A stretch of DNA of 64,000 bases from Methanolobus psychrotolerans. Lineage in GTDB: Archaea; Halobacteriota; Methanosarcinia; Methanosarcinales; Methanosarcinaceae. The stretch covers positions 1 through 64,000 of the forward strand of contig NZ_MBKP01000018.1 of the NCBI RefSeq assembly GCF_002243045.1, in the 5' to 3' direction. Below are positions 12,152 through 61,712 of this stretch, piece by piece. Position numbers and translations under genes: made by a program. The notes below the pieces were generated by a model, which was not told the DNA's origin, ran no database searches, and saw only the letters and a program-made list of their open reading frames with translations. The stretch's first letter is position 1, and each line of letters starts with the position of its first letter.

Positions 12152-12769
<618 letters not shown>

Positions 12770-12825
12770 CTAACCCCCCACTACAGATATGTTGAATTAT
12801 AATTTACAACACCAATTGATATTTT

Positions 12826-24485: not shown

Positions 24486-24500
24486 AACTGGTTGCACCCC

Positions 24501-28855: not shown

Positions 28856-28882
28856 GCGATTCCTCAGTTTTTATAAAAATGA

Positions 28883-29695: not shown

Positions 29696-29832
29696 GAAAA
29701 GCCTCGTAAATCCATTCAGTCCCTCATCGCCGTTATGCGAAAATACTATGTTATTATATGAACAAAAGTATAATATACCTTATGGTCATCAGGTGTGTTT
29801 TGTTTCAACTAATAAATAATTATTTAATTTAC

Positions 29833-32493
29833 TCACATGGCATATATACTGGAATTGTTGGTCACAGGATCTTTCTCAACTGCAAATACATAGTCAGCCG
29901 AGTCAATAAGAGATTCATCGTGGGAAACTATGAGGATCTGTGCCACTCCAATGTCCCTCATCATGTCTATGAGCTTTATTAACTGGTGCACATGCCCCCT
30001 GTCAAGGAATACTGTAGGCTCGTCCATAATAAGAGGAGGTAAACCTGCACCATCATGGGAAGATGTACCAAGTGAAAGCAGACGATATATAGCACAACGG
30101 AGTACAAGGTTAAACAATGCGCGCTCTCCACCACTGAGAAGCTTTGGCTCAAGAGCAGTACCATCTTTTTCAAACACAGTCAGATTGTAATCTGCGTCCA
30201 GCATAACATGAGAGTATGCATTATTGGAATACATGAACGAAAATATCTCGTTTATCAGCATGTTAAGTGTCTGGATATTACTTAAGCGCAGCTGCGCACG
30301 TATACGCATATACATGCTCTCAAGATTTTCAGCATCTGAATAAACAGTATTAAGGTAATCTGCCCGGTTCTTCAGCACCTCGATATTCATTTTAAGGTCA
30401 GAAAGCCGGACCCTGTCACTTTCAGCCATTCCGGCTTTTTTCATAACTTCATCTTTTTCAAGTTTCAACCGGTCAATTTCCGAATTTATGGCAATAAAAG
30501 CAATACCGTATTTCTTACTAAGGGATTCAAGTTCCTTCTTATCGAACTTACCTATTTTATCCTCAATATCCTTCAGTGATTCCTTCTTTTCACCGATCTG
30601 CCCGTCAAAAAGTGAAACCATTTCCTGAATGCTTTTTATTTTGTCATCCATCTGCCTTATCTCAGAATTGATCTTTTCAAACTCAGCCACTGTTTTCTGC
30701 ATTTCCCTGGCAAGACCAAGCCTTTCAAGGACCTTTGAATGCTCTTTTAAGACTGATTCTTCCTCCTGCCTCATCTGCAGGACCTTTGCTTTTGTCTCAT
30801 CAAGGGACTTTCCCAGAGCCTCTTTACCTGCCAGCAATTCCTTAATCCTCAGCTCATCTTCCTTAATGCGCAGACTGTATTCCTCAATCATCTTTTCATC
30901 ACGTTTGATGGCTTCTTTAGCAGAGTCCATATCCCTGACAACAATATCCATCTCAGCTCTACAGCTTCGTGCAGACCTGACCTTCTCCGCCCTTAATTCG
31001 GTTTCAGCCTGTTTGACCTTAAGTTCTGATAATTCCTTAACCAATTTGTTCACAGTTTCATTGTCAGAAACACTTGACTCCTCCATACATGAACCTTTTA
31101 GATCCTGACCGCAAGTAGGACATTTACCTGCCGCCAGAAGCTGCTTTGACTTTTCCAGCCTGCTTTTAAGTTCGGAGATCTTCACAGTAAGTTCCGCTTC
31201 CCTGCCATGGAATCTCTTCTGCTGGTCATTAACAAGATCGAGAACTTCATCGATATTTACCAGCTTTTCGAGGGTAAATCCAAGAGAAACTATCTTTGAT
31301 ATGACACCTTTGCGCAGATCCTCAAGTTCTGCAATGCGACCCTTGTGCGTCTCAATCTCAGAACGAAACACCTGGAGCCTGGAGCCTGTATCCTTCACTG
31401 AACCCTCGCCGGACTTTACCTGCTTATCCGTATCATTCACAGACTGACCTATGTTAAGAAGATCTTTTTCATAAACTGCCTTTTTGCTTTTCAGATCACT
31501 GAGGGAGTCTCTCAAAGAACGTTCATCCTTATCCACCTTCAAAATCAGAGAGTCGACATCTTTAGGATCGGTATTTAGCTGTGACTCAATTTCAGATAAC
31601 CTGGATTGCTTTGCTTCAAGAATTTCCTTATGTGAACGGATTTTTTTTGACATCGAGTCGATAGAAACGTATGATTTGGATTTTCTGTCCGTAAGTTCCT
31701 TTATCTGCTGCTGCACTGATTCTTTCATGCCGTGAAGTTCGTTCAGCTCTGATATCTTTTTTGTAATCTCCTCAATAAGAGAACGTGTCCTGTCCCTTTT
31801 CTCATTCAGAGAAGAAGTTTCTGTATCAATTTCCACAGACCTTGTCCGCAGGGCAGCCAGCCTGCCGCCTGGATTGGAATCCTCAATGAGCCTGATCTCC
31901 ACGGCAACTTCCTTGATACGCCTTTCGTTATCCTTCTGATGTCTTCCTACTCCAACCCTGGCACTTGATGCCCGCTCCCGGTACTCTTCCAGTTTACCAA
32001 GCTGCAGGAGACCATCTATCATTTTCTGGCGGTCCCTGGGTTTGGAGTTGATCAGGATATCAATCTCACCCTGTCGTATGTAAACGCAGTTCCTGTAAGC
32101 CTCTTCATCCATATTCAGAAGAGAGGTTACAGCCTCGTATGCCCTTGTTGCCTGGTCGAATATTATTTCTCCGTCCTTCCTGAATACAGATTTCGTATTG
32201 GAAGCCCTTCCTTTTTCCGGATCGTTCCTGAAGGACTGCTCCACAGAATAATTATGGCCGTTCTGCTCGAATTCAAGCAATATTGACGCCTTTGAAGCGC
32301 CCTTGGTAATTATATCGGAAAGCACAAACTCCTTATCCAGCGTCTTGCTTCCGAAAAGTCCTGTAAAACATGCTTCAAGAAGACTTGACTTGCCACTACC
32401 GTTAACACCTGAAACCACCATGACACCGTTTCTAAATGAGAGATCAAGCCCTTTGTAGCTCCTGATATTCTCAACTTTCAAACGTTTCAACAT
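29833..32493 (-). CDS. rad50: DNA double-strand break repair ATPase Rad50
   Basis: An 886-residue SMC-like ATPase. N-terminal VENIRSYKGLDLSF and Walker A VSGVNGSGKSS; two long coiled-coil arms; a zinc hook CPTCGQ near residue 460 where two Rad50 molecules join; C-terminal signature LLSGGERALFNLVL and Walker B PPLIMDEPTVFLD. With Mre11 it recognises and processes broken DNA ends. The ATG at 32493 follows GGTGAT at eight bases and overlaps the mre11 stop by one base; a GTG one codon earlier is possible. Confidence 0.96.
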   Translation of the reverse strand: MLKRLKVENIRSYKGLDLSFRNGVMVVSGVNGSGKSSLLEACFTGLFGSKTLDKEFVLSDIITKGASKASILLEFEQNGHNYSVEQSFRNDPEKGRASNTKSVFRKDGEIIFDQATRAYEAVTSLLNMDEEAYRNCVYIRQGEIDILINSKPRDRQKMIDGLLQLGKLEEYRERASSARVGVGRHQKDNERRIKEVAVEIRLIEDSNPGGRLAALRTRSVEIDTETSSLNEKRDRTRSLIEEITKKISELNELHGMKESVQQQIKELTDRKSKSYVSIDSMSKKIRSHKEILEAKQSRLSEIESQLNTDPKDVDSLILKVDKDERSLRDSLSDLKSKKAVYEKDLLNIGQSVNDTDKQVKSGEGSVKDTGSRLQVFRSEIETHKGRIAELEDLRKGVISKIVSLGFTLEKLVNIDEVLDLVNDQQKRFHGREAELTVKISELKSRLEKSKQLLAAGKCPTCGQDLKGSCMEESSVSDNETVNKLVKELSELKVKQAETELRAEKVRSARSCRAEMDIVVRDMDSAKEAIKRDEKMIEEYSLRIKEDELRIKELLAGKEALGKSLDETKAKVLQMRQEEESVLKEHSKVLERLGLAREMQKTVAEFEKINSEIRQMDDKIKSIQEMVSLFDGQIGEKKESLKDIEDKIGKFDKKELESLSKKYGIAFIAINSEIDRLKLEKDEVMKKAGMAESDRVRLSDLKMNIEVLKNRADYLNTVYSDAENLESMYMRIRAQLRLSNIQTLNMLINEIFSFMYSNNAYSHVMLDADYNLTVFEKDGTALEPKLLSGGERALFNLVLRCAIYRLLSLGTSSHDGAGLPPLIMDEPTVFLDRGHVHQLIKLIDMMRDIGVAQILIVSHDESLIDSADYVFAVEKDPVTNNSSIYAM

Positions 32494-33998
32494 CACAGGT
32501 AATCACCAAGGTTGTACTGCCGGGGTTTAACAGGATCGTGCCCTTTCTTTGTTTCACTTACAGGCTTTTTTTTATCATCTTTTTCTTTAATATAAACTTC
32601 CTCATTCTCTGCCACAGACAAATTATCAGTAACTTCTGCCTTATTAGTTGTTTTAGCAGGAACGGACCCATTTACATTTTCAGCAACTGCAGAATCCGGT
32701 ACCTCAGAAACAGCAGTTTTAAGATCCTCAACTGATATGCCCTCTTTCACCGTTTCCTCTTCTGTACCTTCCACGTCCACCACACTATCACCTTCATTCA
32801 ACTGAGCTACTTTCTCTTTTCCTGTATTTAAGGGAGGAACATAGGTAATATTGGCAGGAACATAATCAATAAAATCAATCTTGTCAAGCAACTCCCCTAA
32901 TCTGGTCTCTGCTTCATCATCCACCCTTGTCTTCACAATCATAGGGTTCCGTATTATATCATCAAGCAGCAGTCCACCAGCTGTAAGGTCCATTTTCTTG
33001 ATTTCTTCTTTAACAACATCGTCAGGATCTGAAAAAGTCACTTTCATCGAGAGATCTGCCAGCGTATCAACTCCTGTACGAAGGTCTTTGATTCCCGGCA
33101 CCAGTGCACCCCTTGAAAGGAGAAGCTTCTCTATCTCGCTGAAATCCAGCTTTGCCTTAACATCACCTGATATTTCCAGGAAGACAACTTTCTCTGCAAT
33201 ATCATGCTCCATAACTGTAGAAAATACAACTTCGTAGGCATTTGGACCTTCTGTAAGGGTAACAGGTATGAAAACGAATTCACGTGTCGGAATTACTCGT
33301 TTGCTTATCTCTATCCCACTTTCCCCTATCGTGACAATATTGTATGACCTTGGTTCACGCTCAGAAGTACTGTTCCTTTCGGTACTGCCACAGTAGGTGA
33401 CCCATGCCTCATTAACCCTTGTTATCTCTTGTTTGTGATTATCCCCCAGAAGTACGGTATGCACACTAAAAGGAATAGAATCAATAACCTCTTTTATGTC
33501 CCAGTCACCGAAGGAGAATGGCTTTACAAGCTGGTGCATCACAAGCACATTATATTTTGCGTCTGTTGCCTTGCCATCAAATACAGAGAAATCGAATAAA
33601 GGAATCTTTGTTTTGGGCACACTGTCAATGCCATATAATGCTACGTCACCAAGCCTGTAAGGCTCAGTGCCAAGGCGTGTTACAAGACCAAGGCTACTGT
33701 AAAGGTCAAGCCACTGTGTACTCTGTTTGCTCTCATGGTTACCAACAATTGCAAGCAGAGGAATTCCTGCGATTTTCAGCCTTGAGAAAAGCTCCATAGC
33801 ATCAAGAATATCATCAAGGGTAGGGTTCCTGGAATCAAACAGGTCACCTGCATGAACTACAGCATCCACTCCCATACTAATAGCATCATCCACCACATCG
33901 GAAAAAGCATTAAGAAAATCCTGCCTTCGCACATCACTGTGATACTGCCTGTATCCAAGGTGAGTATCCCCTGTGTGGATTATCCTTATCTCATCCAT
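32493..33998 (-). CDS. mre11: DNA double-strand break repair nuclease Mre11
   Basis: A 501-residue manganese-dependent nuclease. The phosphodiesterase motifs are in order: HTGDTHLGYRQ (I), HAGDLFDSRNP (II), IVGNHES (III, with the catalytic His) and VMHQLVKPF/LGDNHKQ (IV-V). Residues 290-400 form the capping domain. The last 120 residues are acidic and low-complexity, ending in a basic segment KPRQYNLGDYL that likely binds Rad50. The ATG at 33998 begins right at the conserved strand; the frame extends 58 codons upstream without conservation. First gene of the mre11-rad50 operon. Confidence 0.95.
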   Translation of the reverse strand: MDEIRIIHTGDTHLGYRQYHSDVRRQDFLNAFSDVVDDAISMGVDAVVHAGDLFDSRNPTLDDILDAMELFSRLKIAGIPLLAIVGNHESKQSTQWLDLYSSLGLVTRLGTEPYRLGDVALYGIDSVPKTKIPLFDFSVFDGKATDAKYNVLVMHQLVKPFSFGDWDIKEVIDSIPFSVHTVLLGDNHKQEITRVNEAWVTYCGSTERNSTSEREPRSYNIVTIGESGIEISKRVIPTREFVFIPVTLTEGPNAYEVVFSTVMEHDIAEKVVFLEISGDVKAKLDFSEIEKLLLSRGALVPGIKDLRTGVDTLADLSMKVTFSDPDDVVKEEIKKMDLTAGGLLLDDIIRNPMIVKTRVDDEAETRLGELLDKIDFIDYVPANITYVPPLNTGKEKVAQLNEGDSVVDVEGTEEETVKEGISVEDLKTAVSEVPDSAVAENVNGSVPAKTTNKAEVTDNLSVAENEEVYIKEKDDKKKPVSETKKGHDPVKPRQYNLGDYL

Positions 33999-34107
33999 CA
34001 GGGAGTATGGTATGCTTTTGCAGTTTTTAATTGTTTGGGGTATATGGGTCAATGTTTCAAAGAGATAGTCCAAAAAATGTACTATTCCGATAAATAATAT
34101 TATACAA

Positions 34108-34120
34108 TTGTTTTTTATAT
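34108..34120 (+). promoter_or_regulatory. TATA box of pilin-like module A
   Basis: TTTTTTATATAA lies about 25-30 bp before the first possible start codons (34138 and 34150), implying a very short leader. Confidence 0.55.
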
Positions 34121-34149
34121 AATTGGATACTAACCAAATGTGGGGCATT

Positions 34150-34617
34150 ATGGATAGTAAAGGCCAGATCACAATAGATTATCTTATCAGCATCACAATT
34201 TTCCTGTTCGCAATTATCTTTGTATTTGACTATACTGCAGGAATATTCACACCTTTTCAATCCAATTCAGATGAAACTACACTAATCGCGGACAGGACTT
34301 CAACAATCCTTGTGGAAAAGATCCTGAGTGAAAAAGATGAAAATGCTCCTAACATGGTGAGCAAGACAAAGATATGTGTGTTCTTTACAGAACTTGACAC
34401 TAATTATGAAGGAACCGTTGATTACCTTGGCCTGAGTGGTTCTTTCCTTAGATACGACTTTAATGTCACATTAGAGAATGAAACAGGAATCATCGGTATG
34501 GCCGGGAAGACGATACCATCCCGTGTTAATGTAGGCCAGACAAAAAGGATAGTCTTACTAAAAGACGACAATACCGGAAATACAGAAGTTGCTATCATGT
34601 CATTCAGGGTGTGGTAA
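34150..34617 (+). CDS. Pilin-like protein, module A gene 1 (DUF7287-like)
   Basis: A 155-residue protein starting MDSKGQITIDYLISITIFLF. KGQ followed by a hydrophobic segment is a class III (archaellin/pilin) signal, with cleavage expected between G and Q, so the helix would become the packed core of a filament. The remainder is an extracellular domain with N-glycosylation sequons. The ATG at 34150 is preferred by alignment with the first gene of module B (MDEKGQIAVDFLLGISLFLI); ATG 34138 is possible. The N-terminal pattern resembles haloarchaeal DUF7287 proteins, from memory. Confidence 0.7.
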   Translation: MDSKGQITIDYLISITIFLFAIIFVFDYTAGIFTPFQSNSDETTLIADRTSTILVEKILSEKDENAPNMVSKTKICVFFTELDTNYEGTVDYLGLSGSFLRYDFNVTLENETGIIGMAGKTIPSRVNVGQTKRIVLLKDDNTGNTEVAIMSFRVW

Positions 34618-42404: not shown

Positions 42405-45400
42405 TTAACTAATACTTATCATTCCTTTTGGTCTGACATATAAGACTTTGCTGGCTACAAGGATATCGCTTACATTGTTCATGTTATATGCATATGCAGT
42501 GATGTAAACCTTGCCTGCGATAGCACTTGTGAAATCAACAGTATCTGATCCGGAAACATTATATATCGGGTTTTCATCAAAATATCCGAGGTTACTATAA
42601 AAATATACATGGGCATTTCCAGGATCTCCCATATTGTCCGTGAGTGTCAGAGTGACAGTTGTGGTGTTATCTATTCGAATTATATTCCTGTCGGGATCTA
42701 TATCCAGAAACGCCAGCGGCACAGAAGACATCGATGCACCACCGCCACCCAGACTTGTACTTCCTCCTCCCCCTACAGTGACCGTGATGTTCTCGCCACT
42801 TAAGTCAGTATATGTTACTGTGGATGTTGGCATGATGATAGGCACATAGCCTGCACCATCTACCCTCATCTGATACCATATGCCCCATTTATCCCCGGCT
42901 CCCATGTTTGGCAAGCGCCATTCAAGTATGGATTTTCCACTGCTTGTTGTGATGCTTGGCTCTGCATTTCCTCTGGGAGGTGCCTTTGGAGTGGCAAACA
43001 AAGTAACATTGCCAGTGGTAGCGTTGCTGCTTCCCGAGATATATGTTGCTTTTGCCACAGATAAGGGAGTGACATAATTGTAAGGCACATGCAGGTCCAG
43101 AATAGGACCACTTGCCGAGAAATTAGTTATCTGCATTGCTATGCCTTTAAAGATATCTTTGAGAACACTGGAATTTGGTGCAAAGTAGTATTCTCCACCT
43201 GTTATGGATGCAATTTCCTGAAGCACCTGATCGACTTCGGATTCCGTGTTGCCAAATCCTACGGTATAGATAACGGTGTTGTTGTCCCTCGCCCTGTATG
43301 CCTCCTCCAACAGGGAGTGGTAACCTGCATTATCTATCCCATCCGTCATCAAAACTATTGTGGAGTTACCTTCCAGCGAATAAAGCTCATTGTTTGCAAC
43401 GAACAGACCTTCATCTATGGCTGTTAGCCCGTCAGCAGTAATCGTATCTATTGCATTGCTCAGATGTGAGATGGAATCATTTTCCAGAGTAGATGTCACA
43501 CTGGCAGTCCACTGGTTCCATGAGACCGGAGTGCTTTCTACTGATGTGTCGGGTATGGAGAACGCAATGTCGAAACATTCGTAATTCCATAAAGAAGACG
43601 GCTCAACCTGCGAAGTGGAACCAAATGAAGAACCATCCCATTTCTGGATATTCAGATCTGTATTTCCATCGGATGTCATGAGGAAAATATCATTAGAAAC
43701 TGGGTCAGGGGTTAGCTGTGCCCACCTGGTATAGCCACTGCTTCCCAGATCGAGTGCTGAAGATTCACTACTCCATGAACCAGACCATGTTCTATATTTT
43801 GGAACGGTGCTCTGGTCTCCCCATACCACCAGCCCTTTGCCTGACTGTTGCTCAAATGCAACATCAACAGATCTGACATCAGTGCGATATGTGCTATATT
43901 CAACGATTCCAAACTGTGAAGAAGGCCATGATGAGCCATCCCAGACACCTACATAGACATCATAAGCAGAATCTTGGGAAGCCATAATTATCCTATTTGA
44001 ATTAGTGTCTGCTGCGAGTTTTACCCAGTAGACAGCATTAGAGAACGAATAAAGGTTCTGTGCACTTCCCCACGAGTTACCATTCCAGATACGATATTTA
44101 ATATAGCTCGAATCAGCCCAGACTACCATAGCTCTGCCAGTACCTTGTTCGTAGATCACATCAAAACATTGGTAACTTGCAGTTCTGGCTGTGTTCGTTA
44201 TCTGTGCAACATTGCCCCATGAAGAGCCATCCCAGACCTGTGCACGTATGTCCGATGAACTGTCAAGAGTCACAAGGACCATCTCATCAGATTTAGGATT
44301 TGCTTCAAGTCTCATCCACTGGATAGTACCTGCACCTGTATTTGAAGAGCTCACTGCAGCCTCAGAGCTCCATGAGGAGCCATCCCACACTCTGTATCGG
44401 GGAATACGGGCATGCTGGTTCAAATCCATATAAACTACAACAGCATCACCAGACAATTGCTCGTACTTCACATCAAAACCTCTTCTTGTGCTCTGACTCA
44501 ATTCAGTGCTAAGTTCCTGCACTGAACTCCAAGAGTTACCGTCCCATGTCTGGGCATTGACGTCTTTTTGATCATCACCTGTAACCATGATGATCTCAGG
44601 CCTGACAGGGCTTGATTCCAGAAGTACAAAATTCGGCACACCATTTATGAAATTAGAATAACTTTCCATGGACCACTGTGAACCTTCCCATGTCCTGAAA
44701 CGAGGAGTACCTTTTCCACTCTCATCACTGCCATCGTAATAAGCTGTCATGATACTATTCAGAAGAGAACTTGAAACACTGATGATGAAGTGAGTATCAG
44801 TCCCTACATATGGACCTTTGGCAATTTCCAGAAGATAGGTTTTTCCTGCGTAAAGAGGAGAACTTACCTGACAAACCCCTGCGTTAGTAGTTGAAGAGTT
44901 CAGAAGGTCTATGCCTTCATAAAGAGAAACGTTCATCTCGGAAGTGTCATCCCATGAAATGTCAAAAACATAAAGACCGTTTGTTTCAACTTCAAAGTAG
45001 CCGGACCAGCTACCATTGTCAAGCAGGTAGCTTTCCTGGCTGTCGGAAAGAGAGATACTTTCAACACTGTAAAGAGCCAGACCTGCTTTGTCCCCGCGGC
45101 TTTCATCAAAACTTGAGATGAATGCATGAGAAGATAATTTGGCTGCACTGATCTTATCTATATAAGTGGATACGGTGAATTTCTCAGTTCCTCTGCCAGT
45201 ACCTGTAACATTTATTGTCCAGTTACCTTTTTCCACGGAATCATTATCAGGATAAAGATAAGATAATGGCTCTATCCAGATGTATTCGGAAGTATTCCCG
45301 TTCGGATAATATCCGGTCGTATCATTGTTAAGTCCATATACCTTTCCTGAAGGGCTTGTCAGTTGAAGATTAAGATTCGAAGAACTGTTCTCCCAATCAA

Positions 45401-48344
45401 GCTGCACCTTAAAGTCATTGATAGTTTCATTGATAAGGAAAGTATCTTCAAAAGTGTCTCCTGTCATTTTTATTACACCAAAAGAACAATCATAGCCAGC
45501 AGCACTCAAATCAGTATTTGCAGGATAATATTCAATTCTGGTACCGTTCCATAATACCTCAACATTCATTACCCTGCTCTCCCAGTCACCCAGACCTTTA
45601 TAGGCATGATAGTCATAGAAAGTTATAGCATTGGTACCTGTTTCCAGATAATTACTAATATCGTATTCATAATCCTCCCACTGTTGATTGATACCTGTAT
45701 TATATGAAGGAATCAAAGCAAAATTTGCTCCGTTTATTCGGATAAGACATTCTCCTGCACTTGAACCACCATAATCGGAACCTGCATCAAAGACAGTATC
45801 CAGGTCATATCCTTCGAATTTGAGCACATATTCCTGCAACTCTAAAGAGCCGCTGAAACTATAATCATATGGAGTAAAACCTTCTGTCCCATACTCCACT
45901 GAGCGTACATCATAATCGCTTATTTCCTGTGCGATGGAATTGTACACATCACGTAGTTCCGCACTTGTGGGTGCGTTGTAGTAAACACCACCTGTCTCAA
46001 AAGCTATACGCTGAAGAACAGGTTCGTCAATATAGTCCGTAGCCCCCAACCCTATTGTGTATATGGTTATATCATTTGCCTTGGCTGTTGCAACGGCATT
46101 CTGACCCTCGCGATCCGAACCTGCATTGGATACTCCATCTGTTAACACGACCATTACTTTTTTTGATTCGGGGCGCCCATTTATAAGCATGCTGTTCGCA
46201 TCTGCCATTGCATCACCCATGGCAGTAGAACCATCAGCTACTAAGACATCGATGACACCTTTAACGGTGTTCTTATTGTTATAGGAATTAAGAAGAGTCA
46301 TACCTATGTCTATTCTGCTGGATGTTGAGAATGAGACCACTCCTGCCTGTGAATTGGATGCAAGATTGTCTACAAATTCCTGTGCAGCTATTTTTGCATC
46401 TGTCATCGGTTGCTCGGGAGAATTACCTAAGAATTTCATACTTCCTGAACGGTCAAGAACAAGCACAACATCAAGAGGAGTTCCAGCATAATAGTCAGGA
46501 TCCATACTTCCCGAACGGTCAAGGACCAGCATTGCACTTGCTGCAGGTCTTATTATGGGAAGTTCACCTTCTATAGAAATAATTGTTGTTACATTTACGA
46601 CTGAACCTGAATTTACCAAAACCGGTTTTACATCCAAATACACACTCATGAAGGGTTCAGCTTTAACACTTATACTAGTTGAAAGACTGATATTGCCACT
46701 TGTAGCCACAATGGTCGTATTTCCCGAAACGTTGCCGGTGAATGTACCATATATTCGTCCGTCAGGGTCAGTTGTAGCATTGATGAGATCGATCGCACTG
46801 ATACCATCAACTATGAGCGTGCCTACTGTTGTGTTGGTATTGTTTAGAGTTACGTGGATGTTTGGCAATGAATGACCCCATTGGTCCAGCGCAACAAGAG
46901 TGATAGCTGATTCATGATTTCCATTCAGATCATGGGCAAGAACTGCATTGGGAACAGAATAAAGGTCCATAGAAGTAAGAGGACCTGCTGTAAAATAGAG
47001 TGTTGTAGTATTGCTAAAATTAGTATATCCGGATTGGTCCTTGTAGGTTGCTGTTATTGAAATGGATTCGAGGTAAGGTGTCGGACCTACGATAGTATTT
47101 GCACGACCCTGGCTGTTCAGAGGCACGATAACTATATTGCTGCTGGCTGTTGTGAAACGGACCTGCTCCTTGATAGGGGTTGTAAGAGGTAAAATAGGGT
47201 TAAGGAACTGGTCAACGGGCTTGGCAGACAAGACATAGGACTCCTGGTTATTTGAAAGAGCATGTTCCGGGGTGTAAGTAAGGAACAGATTATCTATTTC
47301 ATCTGCGATACCTGTTATAGTAATATTACCCTGGAGAGAGGCATTCACCACAGCAACTGTTATGACATTTGCACCTGCTCTTTTATCGGTCCTGAAAACC
47401 GTAGCAAACTGCCCATTTGTATCCGTGGTTCCGCTATAATATAAAAGAGATGCTGAATTATATGCAACCGGGCTATTATAAAGAGTATTTGATGGGGACG
47501 TAACGCTGAGAGTCAGATTTACTTCAGGTACAGGATTATCGAACATATCATAAACGCGGACATACATATTGTTAGTAGTGTTCACTGTATATTCATCGTT
47601 AAAGACAGCCCCCATCCTTGATGGCTCTGCGGGAAGGACCAACAATTCAGTATAGTTGGTGGCTGATCCAGCAGTGGATGTGATTGTAACATTCCCTGCA
47701 AGTGTTGAATTCAGGCTGAAAAATGAACTTCCTGAGGATGACGTAACAGGTAATTCTGAAATCGTCCAGTTTATGTCATCTTCATCATCAAGTGTTATCT
47801 TAATTAATGTTATATTATCCGGATATATCAAAATATTGTTCTGTTGTGCCACACTTCCGGAATAATCAGTTATGACAACATCCAGATAAACTTGTTCATT
47901 TGGATTAGTATTACCAAAAATATCCACTGGTGTGAAAGTAATGTTTGTGGTGTTGCCCGCAACATTCACAGGATAGTCAACATCTGTCAGGAGAGAGCTG
48001 GCAGCCAGTGGCAGGAAAGTAACGTTTGTCAGATTAAAGGCACTACCTGAACTTGCATTAATATGTGCTGTTCCTGCAACTGTAGAATTGATACTTATTT
48101 CTGCAACCCCTGATGAATTGGAGTATGTAAAAGCAGAACTCAGAATTCCCAGATCTGTTGTGAAATTCACCAGTGAATGGTTCACAGGTGTTCCGTTATC
48201 TTTAATCATTACGCTGATATTGATGGAATCTCCTGCGTTACTTTGAACATCCATTGTCATAAACTCTACATCCAGCGCCAAAGCTGAAAACGAGAATGCA
48301 AGAAAAACTGCAGATATAAATATACACTTTTTTAAATGCTCCAT
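42405..48344 (-). CDS. Giant secreted protein with nested VWA domains and propeller-like repeats
   Basis: A 1979-residue protein. Residues 1-24 form a signal peptide. Residues 25-600 hold about five Ig-like (Big/invasin-type) repeats. A first MIDAS motif, VLDRSGSM (Asp609), is followed after 14 residues by a second (Asp631) that opens a full VWA domain (to about 812). Beta-sandwich and P-domain-like regions follow (820-1063). Residues 1064-1093 (KISAAKLSSHAFISSFDESR) look like the next piece of a VWA fold, then comes a PPC-like region and eight W-DGSSW repeats (1205-1590). Residues 1605-1740 complete a VWA domain (LSNAIDTITADGLTA, VLMTDGIDNAG). Residues 1745-1979 are Ig-like. No C-terminal anchor is visible. 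GAGGTATTTCT precedes the ATG. Likely a calcium/metal-dependent adhesin; function is inferred. Confidence 0.85.
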   Translation of the reverse strand: MEHLKKCIFISAVFLAFSFSALALDVEFMTMDVQSNAGDSINISVMIKDNGTPVNHSLVNFTTDLGILSSAFTYSNSSGVAEISINSTVAGTAHINASSGSAFNLTNVTFLPLAASSLLTDVDYPVNVAGNTTNITFTPVDIFGNTNPNEQVYLDVVITDYSGSVAQQNNILIYPDNITLIKITLDDEDDINWTISELPVTSSSGSSFFSLNSTLAGNVTITSTAGSATNYTELLVLPAEPSRMGAVFNDEYTVNTTNNMYVRVYDMFDNPVPEVNLTLSVTSPSNTLYNSPVAYNSASLLYYSGTTDTNGQFATVFRTDKRAGANVITVAVVNASLQGNITITGIADEIDNLFLTYTPEHALSNNQESYVLSAKPVDQFLNPILPLTTPIKEQVRFTTASSNIVIVPLNSQGRANTIVGPTPYLESISITATYKDQSGYTNFSNTTTLYFTAGPLTSMDLYSVPNAVLAHDLNGNHESAITLVALDQWGHSLPNIHVTLNNTNTTVGTLIVDGISAIDLINATTDPDGRIYGTFTGNVSGNTTIVATSGNISLSTSISVKAEPFMSVYLDVKPVLVNSGSVVNVTTIISIEGELPIIRPAASAMLVLDRSGSMDPDYYAGTPLDVVLVLDRSGSMKFLGNSPEQPMTDAKIAAQEFVDNLASNSQAGVVSFSTSSRIDIGMTLLNSYNNKNTVKGVIDVLVADGSTAMGDAMADANSMLINGRPESKKVMVVLTDGVSNAGSDREGQNAVATAKANDITIYTIGLGATDYIDEPVLQRIAFETGGVYYNAPTSAELRDVYNSIAQEISDYDVRSVEYGTEGFTPYDYSFSGSLELQEYVLKFEGYDLDTVFDAGSDYGGSSAGECLIRINGANFALIPSYNTGINQQWEDYEYDISNYLETGTNAITFYDYHAYKGLGDWESRVMNVEVLWNGTRIEYYPANTDLSAAGYDCSFGVIKMTGDTFEDTFLINETINDFKVQLDWENSSSNLNLQLTSPSGKVYGLNNDTTGYYPNGNTSEYIWIEPLSYLYPDNDSVEKGNWTINVTGTGRGTEKFTVSTYIDKISAAKLSSHAFISSFDESRGDKAGLALYSVESISLSDSQESYLLDNGSWSGYFEVETNGLYVFDISWDDTSEMNVSLYEGIDLLNSSTTNAGVCQVSSPLYAGKTYLLEIAKGPYVGTDTHFIISVSSSLLNSIMTAYYDGSDESGKGTPRFRTWEGSQWSMESYSNFINGVPNFVLLESSPVRPEIIMVTGDDQKDVNAQTWDGNSWSSVQELSTELSQSTRRGFDVKYEQLSGDAVVVYMDLNQHARIPRYRVWDGSSWSSEAAVSSSNTGAGTIQWMRLEANPKSDEMVLVTLDSSSDIRAQVWDGSSWGNVAQITNTARTASYQCFDVIYEQGTGRAMVVWADSSYIKYRIWNGNSWGSAQNLYSFSNAVYWVKLAADTNSNRIIMASQDSAYDVYVGVWDGSSWPSSQFGIVEYSTYRTDVRSVDVAFEQQSGKGLVVWGDQSTVPKYRTWSGSWSSESSALDLGSSGYTRWAQLTPDPVSNDIFLMTSDGNTDLNIQKWDGSSFGSTSQVEPSSLWNYECFDIAFSIPDTSVESTPVSWNQWTASVTSTLENDSISHLSNAIDTITADGLTAIDEGLFVANNELYSLEGNSTIVLMTDGIDNAGYHSLLEEAYRARDNNTVIYTVGFGNTESEVDQVLQEIASITGGEYYFAPNSSVLKDIFKGIAMQITNFSASGPILDLHVPYNYVTPLSVAKATYISGSSNATTGNVTLFATPKAPPRGNAEPSITTSSGKSILEWRLPNMGAGDKWGIWYQMRVDGAGYVPIIMPTSTVTYTDLSGENITVTVGGGGSTSLGGGGASMSSVPLAFLDIDPDRNIIRIDNTTTVTLTLTDNMGDPGNAHVYFYSNLGYFDENPIYNVSGSDTVDFTSAIAGKVYITAYAYNMNNVSDILVASKVLYVRPKGMISIS

Positions 48345-54042: not shown

Positions 54043-57000
54043 TTATAGTCTCTTTCTGAAATACATAAAACCGACTGCTACAAGAAGAATTAGTGCTATT
54101 GAGAATAATGATTTACCACCTATATCCTTCTTCGCATCATCCTGAATGTTCCCGCCTTTTTCGGAGGAAATATCACTCTCATATGCCAGAAGGTCGGCAC
54201 TCTGTTCTTCAGAATTCATATTTTCATTCATAGTATCTGCACATATTATGAATGGGGAAAAGCCTGTTGTCGTAGCTTCAAAATAGACATACTCTTCATC
54301 CTCACCTGTCACTGCAGTTGGCAATCTGTTCCAGATACCATCTGAGAAATGTTCCATATAAATATCAGCTCCGGCAAAACCATTTGATCCCAACCATTCT
54401 TTTGAAACCGAAAATCCTATTGCTGCTTCGCCTATTCCTGAAGATGAAAATACATCATCACCAAAAACAATGTCCATACTCTGGTATACTCTGGCCGAAG
54501 TGGGAGCCGGGGTATTTTCAGGCAGGTCATTCAACAGGTTGACAGTTGCCATGACATACCCTACATTGCTCTCAGCTTCAAAACTGATGCCGGTGACTGG
54601 TGTGCTTCTATCTATGAAAACATACTCCACCACGGCATCTTTGCCCACAAACCGGACACTTGAATCCATTGCAGCTATATTTGAAGGCGAAGATGTGCTG
54701 GTTGGAATCCTGACATGGATACCATCATTGCCGTTGCGGGAAGCGCTTGCAACAACTTCTTCAGATTGTTCATCATTACTTGTCAGCGGAAGATGATCAG
54801 TGTTATTACCATTATCCGTAATCTCATACGGCTGACAGAAACCATTTCCGACAGAGTATTGTGCCTGGCTCAAGCCTGTGCCATCCGGCTTTGCCCAGAA
54901 GTTGCCCCCGAGATGGCTTCCGTTGATAATATTGACACCAGACGTCATTACAGTGTTCCATTCGTTGGATCCTCCACCGGAAACATGAACATTGTTACTG
55001 TTGTTAAAATAGTTATTATAGATCAGGTTATCACTGCATTCCGTGAGTGAGATACCGTAGGTGACAATAGCACTGATATTGCAATCGTATATCATATTGT
55101 TGCCGGAAGATGAAAGGTAAGCACCATATCTGTTATCAGTGGATGTGCAATTTGTAATAGTTATGTTACTGCTGTTGTAAAGATAAAGCCCGTAGTAATT
55201 ATTTTCAATTTCAATATCTTGTACAGTTATATTGGAACTATCTATGAGATGCACAAGTCCGGCATTTGAACTGGAATTGATTACAATATCAGAGCTGTTT
55301 ACAAAGTAATAAATTGGTTTCCCATTCACAGTATTATTCGTGCTTACAACATTTGGCTCCGAATCGAAACGACAATTGAAGGAGTTATTACCTATGGAAT
55401 TATCCGCAAGGTAGTTATTGCTCGATCCAACTAAAGACAAACCGTATTCATTACCATCTATTGTGCAATTTGATATATTGCTGTCCTGAGTGGAGCCGAG
55501 ATATATACCATAAGTGTTATTTGATGCATAGCATCTATTTACGCTGCACCCATTTGAAAAAGCAAGATATATACCTGCACTTCCACCTGAGATATTGATG
55601 CCAGATATCGTAATATTGTCCGCAAAAACAACAATTGCATCATAACCGGAATCCGAAGAGATCATACTGACATCTTCGTAGTTGCCGGTAGATGAAATAA
55701 GACTGATATTGCCATCTGCAAACCAGAGATTTTCAGTGTAAACTCCCGGTTCAACGAGTATTGTATCACCATCTGAGACCGCATCGAGAGCTTCAAAAAT
55801 AGTTGTGAAATCACCGCTTCCACTACTGTTCACAACAATTGTAGAATTGAGCACATGGATAAAGGAACTTCTCAGGGAAACGTCACTTCCTATAGAGTTT
55901 GATGCGTTCAGAGAAATATTATAAACACCTGCATTTGAATAAGCATGTAATGGATTCTGAACTGATGACGTGGAATTATCTCCAAAGTCCCATTCCCATG
56001 TGTCTGGAGAAAAGAGACTTATATCGTGGAAATCCACTGCCTCGTTAACATGGACATACCTTGTACCTGCAACAAATGCTGTTTCCGGTTCTTTTTCCTC
56101 TGTTGTGAAAGCCTTAATGCATATGTTCTTATCTGATTCGGATATGTCTTCCCATTCCGTACCATTGCAGCTCATATAACTCTGGCCTGTTTCGGCATGG
56201 GCATTGCTACTGTAATCTGATATTGGCATTTCAATTGCAATAGGATAATTATAGTTCGGTGTTGTGAACTGTACTACGACTGAGAAATTCTGGCCTGCAA
56301 GAAGTGAAACGTTTGTATCAAGATCGATCGTATGGTACCCTGCTATTGAAATACTGCCATTCTGCAAAGAAACCGGACCGGAACTGTTAATCGGACCTGC
56401 TTCGGGGTCCAGATAAACAGAGATGTTGTAGAAGGAGTTTGAATCCACAGTATAGAAACTTACTGCCTCCAAAGCCTCATTTGAACTTGCTGTGAATACA
56501 TTTGCCCCATATGCTGTAATGTTGTTATAACCTGTGCAGGCAGCCCATCCAAGAGGATCGTACTGATAGATATGATCATAGTTACTTACATTCTCTGCAG
56601 TGAACATGAAATTACCAGCATAAGGTTTAGTGTCCAGTCCATCTATACCTTCATTATTTCCCATCACAGTATCATAGTAAGATACATAAAAATAGCCGTC
56701 TTCACCCCAGTTATCACCCCAGGAGTTCTTAATGATAAAAGCCCCGTTTCCGGGAGCTGCGGGGGTAAATTTGTTCCTGTCAAAATTATCATCCCAGCCT
56801 ACTAAAGTTACAGCATGATTTGCGTTGAGAACTTCATCGTAGTAATAATAACTATTATTCTCTGAATTGAAATAGGGGTCATCAAACCACATGGCTACGG
56901 AAACCGCACCATAATTGATTATCATCCATTTGTAAAGAGTGTCATTGCCCTCAAATCCCGGAAGTATCATGATTTCCTGAACATGTTTTGCCACAGTTGC

Positions 57001-57774
57001 ATTGGCAGGAGAAATACCTGAAAATGAATTATAAGGGTCATCGGATTCAAGTGCCGGACCGCTCCATCTGGTGAGATAGGCAGCTGTGAACAGGTCGAAT
57101 CCCCCATCATTATGAGGACGGTCAAATCCATCAGGATCAGAAGTTACGAGAATGTTCTTGGCATTATTCTCTGAAAAATCCCAGTCCTCTGACATGCTAT
57201 GCAGGAGATATGACTCCAGGGAACCTATCGTCGAGTGCGCCCAGCAACTTCCGGCATTGCCCTGGTCCCTTACCCCTGTGACACTATTGTTGTCACGCAG
57301 ATCATAATGGGAAGGATAGACCTCCATACCAGTTAGACTGATGTCTGAAGACATGAAACCATAATATTCGCTTGCCATCAGTTCCTGCATATTCACAGAA
57401 GAAAGATGAGATAGATCTACAGGGGATGGAATAAGCCCGGTTGGATGAACAAAAACCTCTGTTGGATCACCCTCCTCAAAAAGAGAAGAGGGGTTAAAAA
57501 TACCCGGGGATGAAATGTTTGCGGAACTTTCAGATAATATTAGACCAGAAAGAGTAACTGTATTTGTATTTACAGAAGTATTATTCCGGCTCTGATTCAG
57601 TTCTTCTGTATATTGGATAAATGCGGGATTTAGAGGGGCAATAGATATTTGAGATCCCACCGAATCTGGGACTGTATTGTTATCAAGACCTGCTGCACTG
57701 CAGGAAGTGAATGCTAAAATCACTACAAGATAATATGATATAAATAAATAGTTCGGTGGTATTGGGTTCTTCAT
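54043..57774 (-). CDS. Surface protein: papain-like protease, PKD, beta-helix and PGF-pre-PGF domains
   Basis: A 1243-residue secreted protein. A hydrophobic N-terminus (LFISYYLVVILAFTSCSA) acts as signal, possibly lipobox-like. Residues 150-390 are a C1A peptidase: YDLRDNNSVTGVRDQGNAGS then Cys177, NHAVTLVGWDDNF (His) and IIKNSWGDNWGEDGYFYVS (Asn). A lectin-like domain follows to about 560. PKD comes next (DTWEWDFGDNSTSS), then a NosD-type parallel beta-helix (DFTTIFEALDAVSDGDTILV, with repeats of NS-NCT type). A PGF-pre-PGF domain (VRFVGKDAVVEYVFIDRSTP) leads to a C-terminal membrane span and RKRL. Directly downstream of its paralogue. Substrate unknown. Confidence 0.87.
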   Translation of the reverse strand: MKNPIPPNYLFISYYLVVILAFTSCSAAGLDNNTVPDSVGSQISIAPLNPAFIQYTEELNQSRNNTSVNTNTVTLSGLILSESSANISSPGIFNPSSLFEEGDPTEVFVHPTGLIPSPVDLSHLSSVNMQELMASEYYGFMSSDISLTGMEVYPSHYDLRDNNSVTGVRDQGNAGSCWAHSTIGSLESYLLHSMSEDWDFSENNAKNILVTSDPDGFDRPHNDGGFDLFTAAYLTRWSGPALESDDPYNSFSGISPANATVAKHVQEIMILPGFEGNDTLYKWMIINYGAVSVAMWFDDPYFNSENNSYYYYDEVLNANHAVTLVGWDDNFDRNKFTPAAPGNGAFIIKNSWGDNWGEDGYFYVSYYDTVMGNNEGIDGLDTKPYAGNFMFTAENVSNYDHIYQYDPLGWAACTGYNNITAYGANVFTASSNEALEAVSFYTVDSNSFYNISVYLDPEAGPINSSGPVSLQNGSISIAGYHTIDLDTNVSLLAGQNFSVVVQFTTPNYNYPIAIEMPISDYSSNAHAETGQSYMSCNGTEWEDISESDKNICIKAFTTEEKEPETAFVAGTRYVHVNEAVDFHDISLFSPDTWEWDFGDNSTSSVQNPLHAYSNAGVYNISLNASNSIGSDVSLRSSFIHVLNSTIVVNSSGSGDFTTIFEALDAVSDGDTILVEPGVYTENLWFADGNISLISSTGNYEDVSMISSDSGYDAIVVFADNITISGINISGGSAGIYLAFSNGCSVNRCYASNNTYGIYLGSTQDSNISNCTIDGNEYGLSLVGSSNNYLADNSIGNNSFNCRFDSEPNVVSTNNTVNGKPIYYFVNSSDIVINSSSNAGLVHLIDSSNITVQDIEIENNYYGLYLYNSSNITITNCTSTDNRYGAYLSSSGNNMIYDCNISAIVTYGISLTECSDNLIYNNYFNNSNNVHVSGGGSNEWNTVMTSGVNIINGSHLGGNFWAKPDGTGLSQAQYSVGNGFCQPYEITDNGNNTDHLPLTSNDEQSEEVVASASRNGNDGIHVRIPTSTSSPSNIAAMDSSVRFVGKDAVVEYVFIDRSTPVTGISFEAESNVGYVMATVNLLNDLPENTPAPTSARVYQSMDIVFGDDVFSSSGIGEAAIGFSVSKEWLGSNGFAGADIYMEHFSDGIWNRLPTAVTGEDEEYVYFEATTTGFSPFIICADTMNENMNSEEQSADLLAYESDISSEKGGNIQDDAKKDIGGKSLFSIALILLVAVGFMYFRKRL

Positions 57775-57944
57775 CTTATGTCCCTCTTTCTAAAAGATAC
57801 ATGATGATAATATATAATCACCTATTATATATTTAGTCGTAAAAAAGAAATACCCTTATATCTAACAAGAATTGGAAAATAAATAATAAAGGAAGGCAGG
57901 TTCTTAACTGCATTTTCCTTTTCGTTTCTTTAAAAAAGGAGTAA

Positions 57945-60900
57945 TCAGATTTTACCTTTCGATCCCTTCCTCCAGTACACGATACCTAGAATTCCGACCA
58001 GAATTACTACAGGCAAAATCAATATTGTACTACCTTTTTCATCGTTGGCAGGGTCCTGGATATTCTCATCTGTTGCTGTGGATTCGGGAATGCTATCTGC
58101 TATGATATCCGGACTCTGAATTTCAGCATTCATGTTCTCATTAGTTACATCTGCACAGATCATGAAAGGTGAGAAACCTGTCGTTGTTGCTTCAAAATAG
58201 ACATATTCATCATCCTCACTTATCTCCGTAGTAACCAATCTGTTCCAGACACCATCTGAAAAGTGTTCCATACGGATGTCAAACTTATCATAATTATTAG
58301 AGGTGATCCATTCTTTTGAGACAGCAAATCCTATTGTAGCTTCTCCTATTCCCGAAGATGAGAAGCTTTCATCACCCAGAACGATGTCCATTATCTGGTA
58401 TGTTCTGACTGAAGTGGAAGCTGGAGCATTTTCCGGCAGCTCATTCAAAAGATTGACAGTTGCCATGACATACCCGACATTGGTATCTGCTTCAAAACTG
58501 ATGTCAGTGACAGGTGTGTTCCTGTCAGTAAAAACATACTGTATTTCAGCATCTCTACCTACAAACCGGACACTTGAATCCATTGCAGCGACATTTGAAG
58601 GAGAAGAAGTGCTGGTTGGAATCCTTACATGGATACCATCATTGCCGTTCTGAGAAGCGCTTGCAACAACTTCATCTGGTTGCTCTTCGTTAGCTGTCAG
58701 CGGAAGGAAATCGGTATTATTGCCATCATTCGTAATCTCATATGGCTGGCAGAAACCATTTCCAATGGAGTATTGCGTCTGGCTCCAGCCTGTACCAGCC
58801 GGCTTTGCCCAATAGTTTCCTCCAAGATAACTTCCATTGATGATATTAGTTCCAGCTATCATTGTGATGTTCCATTGATTGGACATTCCTGTGGAAAGAA
58901 GGGCATTTGATGCACTATTATTTAGATAGTTATTATAAATAAGATTGTCATTTGAACCACTTAGTGCGACACCAAAGACATTGTTGCTCATATTAGAACT
59001 GTGTATTGTATTGTTACCTGAAGAAAGAAGGAACATACCATAACCATTATTTGCTGCTGTAAAATTACTAACACTAACATCAGTGCAGTTATACATAAAG
59101 AAACCACAGTGATTGTTTTCGATATCGATGTCCTGTACTGTTATATTCGAACAATTGATAAGGTGAACAAGTCCGGCATTTGAACTGGAATCAAGGACAA
59201 TATCAGAACGATCTACAAGATAGTAGATTGGTTTACCATTTATTGTATTGCTTGTACCAACTGCACTTATCTCATCATCAAAAGCATAATTAAACATATT
59301 ACCAGCTACTAAATTATTTGCTAAATAATTGTTTGCAGAGCTCATTACTGCCAGACCATAAAAAGTATTATTACTTATTGTGCAATTCAGAATTGTGTTG
59401 TTCTGTGAATGATAAAGATAGATACCAAACATACTATTGTCCATAGCATAGCAGTTAGTTATGTTACAACCATTTGATCCGTAAGCATATATTCCCGCAT
59501 ATCCTCCAGAAACATTTACTCCTGAAATAGTAACATTGTCCGCTGTTATGTGTATCGTATACTCGTCAGAATCGGGGGAAATTATATGTACATCTTCTGA
59601 GTTACCGGTTGAAGATAACAGGCTGATGTTGTTTTCTGTCAAAGCAAGGTTTTCACTATAAGTACCTGGTTCAATCAAGATAGTATCGCCATCTGATGCA
59701 GCATCAATAGCTTCATCGATGGTTGTGAAATCAGCACTTCCACTGTTGTTCACAATAATGGTTGAATCAAGGACATGAATTAAAGAAGTTTTTAATGAGA
59801 CATCGTTTCCAAAAGAGTTCGATACGTTCAGAGAAATATTATAAGCACCAGTATTTGAATAAGCATGCAATGGATTCTGAACTGATGAAGTGGAATTATC
59901 TCCAAAGTCCCATTCCCATGTAGTCGGGGAAAAGAGACTTGCATCGTGGAAGTCCACGGTTTCATTTACATGGACATACTTAGTACCTGCAACAAATGCT
60001 GCTTCCGGTTCTTTTTCCTCTGTTGTGAAAGCTTTTATGCATATATTCTTATCTGATTCTGATATGTCTTCCCATTCCGTACCATTGCAGCTCATATAAC
60101 TCTGGCCTGTTTCAGCATGGGCATTGCTACTGTAATCTGATATTGGCATTTCAATTGCAATAGGATAATTATAGTTCGGTGTTGTGAACTGTACTACCAC
60201 TGAGAAATTCTGCCCTGCAAGAAGTGAGACATTTGTATCAAAATCGATCGTATGATAACCGGCAATTAGGGTAGTACCATTCTTAACGGAAACCGGGCCG
60301 GAACTATTGACCGGACCAGCTTCAGGGTCCAGATAAATAGAAATGTTATAAAATGAATTCGAATCCACTGTATAGAAACTCACTGCTTTGAGTGTCTCAT
60401 TTGTTGTTGCTGTGAATACATTTGCCCCATAGGCCGTACTATTGTCGTATCCCACACATTCAGTCCATCCAAGTGGATCGTACTGATAGACACGATCATA
60501 GTTGCTGACATTCTCTGAAGTAAAAATGAAATTACGTGCATAAGGTCTGGTATTTAACCCATTAAACCCTATATCGAGCCCGGTTGCATTATCATAGTAT
60601 GAAATGTAGAAATATCCTTCTTCACCCCAGTTATCACCCCATGAGTTCTTGATGATGAAAGCTCCATTTCCGGGAGCTGCCGGAGTAAAATTATGCTTGC
60701 TGTAATTGTCGTCCCATCCCACCAAAGTTACGGCATGATTTGTACCCACTATCTCACCGTAGTAATAATAACTATTGTTCTCTGAATTGAAATATGAGTT
60801 CCCATACAACATGGATACGGAAATAGCACCATAATTGGTAACCATCCATTTAAATAGATCATCTGACTCATTTACTCCAGGAAGTATCATTATCTCCTGA

Positions 60901-61712
60901 ACATGTTTTGCCACTGTTGTGTTGGATGGAGATACACCAGAAAGATCGTTATACGGATCATCAGACTCAAGTACCGGCCCATCCCATCTGGTTAAGTAAG
61001 CAGCTGTCATCAGGTTGTTTCCTCCATCATCATCAGCACGATCAAATCCATCCTGATTAGAGGATACAAGAATGTTCTTTGCATTGTTCTCTGAAAAATC
61101 CCAGGTCTCTGACCTGTTGTGCAGGAGATAGGATTCCAGGGAACCAATACTTCCGTGAGCCCAGCAACTTCCGGCCTGACCCTGATCTCTTACCGCTGTG
61201 ACACCATTGTTGTCACGCAGGTCATAGCGGGAAGGATAGACCTCCATATCAGTTAGCCTGATATCTGAAGACATAAAACCATATTCTTCACTTGCCATCA
61301 GTTCCTGCATATTCACAGGAGATAGATGGGAAAGATCAACAGGAGAGGGAATAAAGCCGGTTGGATGGGAGGGATCATCAGTTAACTTACCTTCCTCAAA
61401 AAAAGAAATTATGTTTGAAATATCAGGGGATGAAGTATTGGCAGAGCTTTCTGGTGGTATGAGACTGGAAAGAGTAACTGTGTTTGTATTTGCATTGACA
61501 GGAGCAGCATTCTGGCTCTGTTCCAGTTCTTCCATATATTGAACGAATGCAGGATTTAGAGGTGCGATGGATATTTGGGGTTCAACATCAGAGAAATTGA
61601 GTTCAGATACAACCCCCTGATCAAGATCTGCTGCATTTCCCGGAATTGCCGTTAAGGACAACACAAGCCCGCATATAATTAACACGTTTTTCAATAGCAT
61701 TGATTTATTCAT
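57945..61712 (-). CDS. Paralogous papain-like surface protease
   Basis: A 1255-residue protein with the same domain order as the downstream gene: signal peptide (LIICGLVLSLTAIPGNA), C1A peptidase (SRYDLRDNNGVTAVRDQGQA, Cys183; NHAVTLVGWDDNY; IIKNSWGDNWG), lectin-like part, PKD, beta-helix and PGF-pre-PGF domain, then a membrane anchor ending GSKGKI. Long segments are identical between the pair, for instance around the VVQFTTPNYNYPIAIEMPIS stretch, so the duplication is recent or under gene conversion. The two differ most in the prosegment and beta-helix. GAGGACGTAAG precedes the ATG at 61712. Each has its own upstream region, so they may be separately controlled. Confidence 0.87.
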   Translation of the reverse strand: MNKSMLLKNVLIICGLVLSLTAIPGNAADLDQGVVSELNFSDVEPQISIAPLNPAFVQYMEELEQSQNAAPVNANTNTVTLSSLIPPESSANTSSPDISNIISFFEEGKLTDDPSHPTGFIPSPVDLSHLSPVNMQELMASEEYGFMSSDIRLTDMEVYPSRYDLRDNNGVTAVRDQGQAGSCWAHGSIGSLESYLLHNRSETWDFSENNAKNILVSSNQDGFDRADDDGGNNLMTAAYLTRWDGPVLESDDPYNDLSGVSPSNTTVAKHVQEIMILPGVNESDDLFKWMVTNYGAISVSMLYGNSYFNSENNSYYYYGEIVGTNHAVTLVGWDDNYSKHNFTPAAPGNGAFIIKNSWGDNWGEEGYFYISYYDNATGLDIGFNGLNTRPYARNFIFTSENVSNYDRVYQYDPLGWTECVGYDNSTAYGANVFTATTNETLKAVSFYTVDSNSFYNISIYLDPEAGPVNSSGPVSVKNGTTLIAGYHTIDFDTNVSLLAGQNFSVVVQFTTPNYNYPIAIEMPISDYSSNAHAETGQSYMSCNGTEWEDISESDKNICIKAFTTEEKEPEAAFVAGTKYVHVNETVDFHDASLFSPTTWEWDFGDNSTSSVQNPLHAYSNTGAYNISLNVSNSFGNDVSLKTSLIHVLDSTIIVNNSGSADFTTIDEAIDAASDGDTILIEPGTYSENLALTENNISLLSSTGNSEDVHIISPDSDEYTIHITADNVTISGVNVSGGYAGIYAYGSNGCNITNCYAMDNSMFGIYLYHSQNNTILNCTISNNTFYGLAVMSSANNYLANNLVAGNMFNYAFDDEISAVGTSNTINGKPIYYLVDRSDIVLDSSSNAGLVHLINCSNITVQDIDIENNHCGFFMYNCTDVSVSNFTAANNGYGMFLLSSGNNTIHSSNMSNNVFGVALSGSNDNLIYNNYLNNSASNALLSTGMSNQWNITMIAGTNIINGSYLGGNYWAKPAGTGWSQTQYSIGNGFCQPYEITNDGNNTDFLPLTANEEQPDEVVASASQNGNDGIHVRIPTSTSSPSNVAAMDSSVRFVGRDAEIQYVFTDRNTPVTDISFEADTNVGYVMATVNLLNELPENAPASTSVRTYQIMDIVLGDESFSSSGIGEATIGFAVSKEWITSNNYDKFDIRMEHFSDGVWNRLVTTEISEDDEYVYFEATTTGFSPFMICADVTNENMNAEIQSPDIIADSIPESTATDENIQDPANDEKGSTILILPVVILVGILGIVYWRKGSKGKI

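Follow-up and report, generated by a model that had tools for sequence, protein, structure and literature searches.

Cwp84 of Clostridioides difficile (PDB entries 4ci7, 4d59 and 4d5a) is a protease that contains a prosegment, a papain-like (C1A) domain and a calcium-binding lectin-like domain, in that order, and that cleaves the surface-layer (S-layer) precursor SlpA, as described in PMC4089489. The same paper, from 2014, already reported the C1A plus lectin-like arrangement in 'a small number of archaea', including Methanosarcina mazei (NP_632235, its Fig. 2), and one of its legends gives three PF04122 repeats for three relatives of Cwp84. Here we describe two genes for multidomain surface cysteine proteases, A and B, in a 64,000-nucleotide window of Methanolobus psychrotolerans DNA (contig NZ_MBKP01000018.1, positions 1 to 64,000). 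To our knowledge, the processing and remodelling of archaeal S-layers by proteases has been little explored. The genes lie head to tail on the minus strand with B upstream of A, and they are the only PF18560 genes found in the 3.16-Mb genome. A first-pass annotation, made from the sequence alone, had described a tandem pair of large papain-like proteases with one domain order. The open reading frames (ORFs) are where it placed them, and Pfam and NCBIfam searches agree with its domains: Peptidase_C1, Lectin_like (PF18560), PKD, NosD/Beta_helix and PGF_pre_PGF follow one another in both proteins, preceded by a signal peptide and a prosegment and closed by a C-terminal transmembrane helix.

By sequence and by predicted structure, the C1A plus lectin-like core of A and B is the core of Cwp84, an S-layer protease. 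The best PDB matches of A, over residues 157-557, are the three Cwp84 entries (E = 2e-31 for 4d59 and 4e-31 for 4ci7, both over 160-557), with cathepsins far behind at 3e-16. An AlphaFold2 model of A24-562, built from 52 rows (mean predicted local distance difference test score (pLDDT) 77, predicted template modelling score 0.77), superposes on 4d59 with a Z score of 40.4 (385 residues, root-mean-square deviation (rmsd) 2.3, 27% identity), spanning both the C1A and the lectin-like domain. The pro-form 4ci7 scores 37.3, its alignment with the model beginning at model residue 85 (A108), and the next chains are single-domain cathepsins at Z ∼23. Foldseek agrees with the Cwp84 match. With PF18560 directly after C1A and a fold match running across the two, A and B belong with the C1A plus lectin-like proteases of the Cwp84 type.

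The catalytic residues also fit this assignment. Gln171, Cys177, His320 and Asn350 of A correspond to Gln177, Cys183, His326 and Asn356 of B, and the four are intact in all 52 aligned rows, as expected of the C1A papain family (PF00112) with its oxyanion Gln and cathepsin-like fold; the first-pass annotation had recognised the Cys, His and Asn in the pair itself. A 53rd frame (G049, L052), not part of this alignment, has a frame break at the start of its C1A domain (L052:4904-4998). In the lectin-like domain, the equivalent of the Cwp84 calcium ligand Glu448 is conserved in 52 of 52 rows and that of Asn487 in 45 of 52. The link to Cwp84 had been missed at first pass, where defence, wall remodelling and adhesion were listed side by side, and it is the C1A plus lectin-like core that puts this list in order. 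The Cwp84-type core itself is known already; here it is combined, as a variant, with a stalk in the style of methanogen S-layer proteins.

We modelled that stalk separately (A558-1243; 22 rows, mean pLDDT 75). In the model, a PKD domain is followed by a confident beta-helix (mostly pLDDT >90). Disorder prevails over about A937-1023, and beyond it lie the PGF-pre-PGF domain, rich in beta-structure, and a helix at the end of the chain. By Foldseek, the PKD domain matches the archaeal surface-layer protein 1l0q with an rmsd of 1.1 over 83 columns at 40% identity. S-layer (PF07752) proteins of the same genome use similar modules, with NosD/beta-helix in L076 and L077 and PKD in L076 and L078, and the C-terminal part of A, containing PGF-pre-PGF, also matches the ends of the C71 and C89 ORFs, which are the PF07752 frames. 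L076 and L077 differ from A and B in having neither a protease nor a lectin-like domain. These common modules tie the stalk of A and B to the S-layer. The genome encodes archaeosortase A, and neither A nor B has a PGF motif within its last 60 residues, which sets them apart from PGF-CTERM substrates of that enzyme; the motif occurs in 5 of 53 homologues, all from other genera. The anchor of A and B is therefore probably an uncleaved transmembrane helix.

A and B are 70% identical in amino acids and 75% in nucleotides, with about 0.95 synonymous substitutions per site (dS). The divergence is far from uniform, and amino acid identity along a sliding-window plot, the check that the first-pass annotation had proposed, ranges from 27 to 100% in 40-codon windows. 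The longest identical run comprises 79 residues around the end of the lectin-like domain (A486-564, B492-570), a region already noted at first pass as identical over dozens of residues; 70 of the 79 codons are identical, there are nine nucleotide differences, and the tract may extend at lower identity to about residue 610 of A. None of 5000 codon shuffles reached its run of 27 identical codons (longest 19). When only codons for identical amino acids were considered, the best window was reached by 0 of 5000 shuffles for 80 codons, 1 for 50 codons and 38 for 30 codons. As shown in Table 1, the proportion of synonymous differences (pS) is lowest in the C-terminal part of the lectin-like domain, where nine other pairs give 0.35-0.80, and this contrast points to a recent transfer between A and B and not to codon constraint. 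It also rules out strong purifying selection alone as the source of the identical stretch. Gene conversion, as proposed at first pass, has occurred between A and B: synonymous divergence is lost locally beyond chance, and the domain trees conflict. The accompanying claim that prosegment and beta-helix differ holds for both at the protein level, while at synonymous sites the prosegment is not among the most diverged regions.

Table 1. Features of genes A and B in window coordinates, with the comparison of A and B (amino acid identity; pS) entered once per domain
Feature	Residues	Position	Strand	Basis	A versus B
Gene A, downstream copy, multidomain surface cysteine protease	1243 aa	54043..57774	-	ORF and domain search	
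Gene B, upstream copy	1255 aa from ATG 61712; start 61739 if TTG used	57945..61712	-		
A prosegment	∼29-150	57325..57690	-	position between signal peptide and C1A	70%; 0.44
B prosegment	∼29-156	61245..61628	-	position and alignment with A	
A C1A papain-like protease domain	154-366	56677..57315	-	PF00112, E 2.5e-26	73%; 0.53
B C1A papain-like protease domain	160-375	60588..61235	-	PF00112, E 1.2e-27	
A lectin-like domain	402-557	56104..56571	-	PF18560, E 1.8e-54	
B lectin-like domain	408-563	60024..60491	-	PF18560, E 3.7e-54	
Lectin-like domain, N-part					80%; 0.56
Lectin-like domain, C-part					100%; 0.16
A conversion tract core	486-564	56083..56319	-	protein identical to B; shuffle test	
B conversion tract core	492-570	60003..60239	-	protein identical to A; shuffle test	
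A PKD	564-633	55876..56085	-	PF18911, 1.6e-11	84%; 0.40
B PKD	568-642	59787..60011	-	PF18911, 5.4e-13	
A right-handed beta-helix	∼641-950	54925..55854	-	PF05048, PF13229	62%; 0.69
B right-handed beta-helix	∼649-958	58839..59768	-	PF05048, PF13229	
A PGF-pre-PGF	1030-1178	54241..54687	-	TIGR04213, 3.9e-39	77%; 0.44
B PGF-pre-PGF	1038-1186	58155..58601	-	TIGR04213, 1e-41	
A C-terminal transmembrane helix and basic tail	1222-1242	54049..54111	-	model helix 665-685; hydropathy	
B C-terminal transmembrane helix and basic tail		57969..58043	-	hydropathy 3.02	

We compared the pair with relatives from 40 regions, covering every match within the genus and selected ones from other genera; 53 open frames with the core were obtained, A and B included. 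Quick trees were made for each domain from 25 of these rows (23 for the beta-helix and 22 for PGF-pre-PGF, where rows cut short were dropped). In the C1A tree, B clusters with G058 and with the second G050 gene; A is found with the downstream copies of G039, G062 and G063, with the first G050 gene, and with G068, G044, G059 and G061. Forcing A and B to be sisters is rejected by the approximately unbiased test for C1A (p = 1.1e-5) and for the beta-helix (p = 1e-128), and with the overall dS this rules out a recent duplication of the whole gene. Sister pairs are likewise rejected for C1A in G062 (p = 5e-6), G063 (p = 3e-4) and G039 (p = 3e-45), and for the beta-helix in G063 (p = 1.6e-8) and G039 (p = 4e-11), with G062 borderline (p = 0.054). 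The PGF-pre-PGF tree makes the copies within a genome sisters in G063 (support 95), G039 (83) and, weakly, in A and B (52); in G062 such a tree is neither favoured nor rejected (p = 0.19). The claim of a homogenised anchor therefore rests mainly on G063 and G039.

Local losses of synonymous divergence recur in other pairs. In G063, pS is 0.17-0.34 over about residues 976-1175, in G039 it is 0.08-0.29 over 976-1100, and the G050 pair dips to 0.12-0.18 around residues 126-200; the triplet of G064 has no tract as clear as these. The lectin region of G059 and G061 (L042, L045) has a dS of 0.05, against 0.36-0.94 in their other domains, which indicates that exchange also crosses species, in the region that is converted in the window. 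The upstream gene of G050 joins a C1A domain of the downstream type of four other pairs to the beta-helix of B (84% amino acid identity and pS 0.28 between the beta-helices of B and G050). In the second copy of G050, the beta-helix is interrupted by an in-frame TAA (L034:10647-10649), followed by 323 further open codons. This copy is either decaying or the product of an assembly error; pyrrolysine read-through is ruled out by the identity of the stop. As a separate observation on the heads, 12-14 residues are missing from the upstream-type C1A domains of four genomes (L036, L035, L032 and L046) at about A residues 372-385, near the putative S2 wall, and the two head types may accordingly differ in specificity.

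We next consider selection, using domain-wise, pairwise ratios of nonsynonymous to synonymous substitution (dN/dS) obtained by counting. Every domain and pair computed gives a value of 0.65 or less, the maximum falling in a prosegment. In eight close cross-species pairs, dN/dS is 0.07-0.29 for C1A and 0.13-0.25 for the beta-helix (available for seven, with dS below 0.6), so that no variable domain exceeds 1. These counts do not bear out the 'diversifying binding regions' proposed at first pass. Judged by them, the beta-helix as a whole is not driven to change, and the beta-helices of A and B differ because each holds an old, separately conserved lineage.

The reading we favour, and consider rather probable, is that A and B are membrane-anchored, secreted zymogens of Cwp84 architecture that process the envelope. 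The signal peptide would export them, and the prosegment would block the active-site groove until its removal frees the C1A protease, whose groove the calcium-binding lectin-like domain may deepen. PKD and beta-helix would form a stalk or a sugar-contacting arm, as on the S-layer proteins of the same genome; PGF-pre-PGF and the transmembrane helix would keep the protein in the membrane, with the catalytic head acting within or on the S-layer. There it would make limited cuts in envelope proteins, either S-layer or S-layer-associated glycoproteins, much as Cwp84 does on SlpA. A and B would have been paired for long, each with its own catalytic and beta-helix lineage and presumably its own substrates; at their one locus, recurrent conversion and unequal exchange would have made the lectin end uniform, in some genomes the anchor too, and reshuffled everything else. 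Of this scheme, the analysis shows the domains with their catalytic residues, the fold as predicted, the tract of conversion, the conflict between trees and the purifying selection.

Several points weigh against it. Activation, location, activity and substrate are what we infer for A and B. Structure prediction, which the first-pass annotation had suggested for prosegment and beta-helix, succeeded for the latter and left the prosegment of A mostly under pLDDT 50. The C1A plus lectin-like family is absent from 51 of 111 Methanosarcinaceae genomes and so is not a generally required S-layer maturase. The direct neighbours of the pair are modABC-like genes, a cupin and an ilvE-like gene, with no S-layer genes among them (names assigned by eye; the cupin by Pfam). 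Unlike Cwp84, which we take to be anchored by three PF04122 repeats, A and B have no CWB2 anchor and carry PKD, beta-helix, PGF-pre-PGF and a C-terminal transmembrane helix instead; a Pfam search at E 0.001 gave no PF04122 match in either, and they are not Cwp84 orthologues in the strict sense. They also differ in forming a tandem pair with conversion. Finally, alignment places Lys383 of A and Arg389 of B at the position of the S2-pocket residue Asp320 of Cwp84, a stretch of low model confidence, and Cwp84's preference for Lys at P2 is therefore not expected. We discarded this alignment as a guide to S2-pocket specificity beyond a weak hint, the stretch being gapped among relatives and below pLDDT 50 at model residues 355-360.

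A tentative extension, possible though in our judgement doubtful, is that the locus works as a two-slot cartridge. Selection would keep the old lineages of protease head and beta-helix arm distinct, and recombination between slots and between species would reassort heads with arms, the lectin end and anchor staying interchangeable. The upstream gene of G050 illustrates such a combination. If this were so, Methanolobus could adjust both the set of surface proteins that it cuts and the target to which the protease holds on. The paired locus also offers a clear natural example of concerted evolution that acts domain by domain on archaeal surface enzymes.

A serious rival reading, though in our view an improbable one, is that A and B are instead stress- or virus-induced lysis or suicide proteases, kept low in normal growth and turned on by infection, when they would break the envelope to end the cell or release virions. 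The membrane-associated cysteine proteinase MM_RS01165 of M. mazei rises more than 25-fold after infection with the virus MetSV and was proposed to aid lysis (PMC9694453), and the patchy presence in the family (60 of 111 genomes) would suit such a role. However, MM_RS01165 is only a candidate C1A plus lectin-like protein, and our literature search returned nothing tying it to NP_632235. Retention in tandem under purifying selection across species needs no suicide role, and we recognised no defence genes among the neighbours looked at, although no defence-library search was run. Envelope processing and virus-induced lysis could both hold, if infection triggers envelope cutting. An archaeal counterpart of a well-studied S-layer protease that is also present in the genetically tractable Methanosarcina makes both surface glycoprotein cutting and virus induction directly testable.

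Equally improbable is a role in matrix or wall remodelling and dispersal, in which surface glycoproteins or matrix proteins would be trimmed for separation or spread and the beta-helix would bind polysaccharide. The 40 and 41 N-glycosylation sequons in the two proteins fit a glycosylated surface location, and the beta-helix model is similar in fold to proteins that act on or bind polysaccharides (exopolygalacturonase, alginate lyase and tailspikes), but with TM-scores of about 0.2-0.4 these matches reflect a common fold only and were rejected as a guide to function. The known matrix polysaccharide, methanochondroitin, is described in PMC12369344 as unique to Methanosarcina, whereas PF18560 proteins also occur outside that genus; in that paper, the terms protease, peptidase, papain and lectin led to no protease of the C1A plus lectin-like kind. 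Our searches of the literature found nothing joining Methanolobus with a cysteine protease, only the Cwp84 paper (PMC4089489) for Methanosarcina with papain, cysteine protease and S-layer, and, linking Methanosarcina, gene conversion and surface layer protein, only one paper, unrelated by its abstract. The first-pass reading of A and B as diversifying adhesins or recognition proteins, with a beta-helix selected for change, is very unlikely, for although A and B differ more in the beta-helix than in any other large domain (Table 1), the dN/dS of the beta-helix is low in all seven close pairs, the beta-helix of B is nearly matched in G050 and the catalytic residues are intact throughout.

PF18560 is present in 60 of 111 Methanosarcinaceae genomes, 16 of 27 in the genus and 72 of 237 in the class, and the earlier remark that such proteases are not a standard part of methanogen biology was overstated. 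Neighbouring copies, about 4 kb from start to start, occur in seven of the 16 genomes of the genus that gave a match (G000, G039, G047, G050, G062, G063 and G064, the last with three copies) and also in G032 and G035. Genes that flank the pair in the window flank the locus elsewhere too, namely an ilvE-like gene in five relatives (G050, G062, G045, G061 and G059) and a gene for a 437-residue coiled-coil protein in seven (the same five, G039 and G063). At this locus there are two copies in G050, G062 and G063 and a single one in G059, G061 and G045; G039 is interrupted by a contig end. The three single-copy genes have the domain order of A and B, with the coiled-coil gene and ilvE beside all three and modC beside two, and differ in being one gene where A and B are two. 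Farther away, the Methanosarcinaceae relatives, NP_632235 of M. mazei among them, share with A and B a C1A plus lectin-like domain in an archaeon, but in the Methanosarcina-like genus g13 many open frames are shorter (mostly about 530-860 residues) and lack the complete stalk and anchor. In a related genus, two C1A-lectin proteins (L066:112-2806 and 11861-14252) end, by eye, in dockerin-like tails. The C1A plus lectin-like core extends to many bacterial phyla and to Methanomicrobiales (L091-L159), a scatter that hints at wide lateral spread.

Upstream of each of A and B lies a separate A+T-rich region with, by eye, a GAGG-like ribosome site. A sigma-70 promoter scan, which is not designed for archaea, was at chance level (38 found, 34.0 expected). 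Elsewhere in the window, a 1979-residue giant surface-type protein with Big_1 and VWA domains is encoded 6 kb from the pair (42405-48344, minus strand), and an S-layer PF07752 protein fragment (3-686, minus strand; E = 2.7e-48) is truncated by the contig end. At 23373-34172, SMC and ScpB genes adjoin those for a Rad50-like ATPase and a calcineurin-like phosphoesterase, which is Mre11-like by position.

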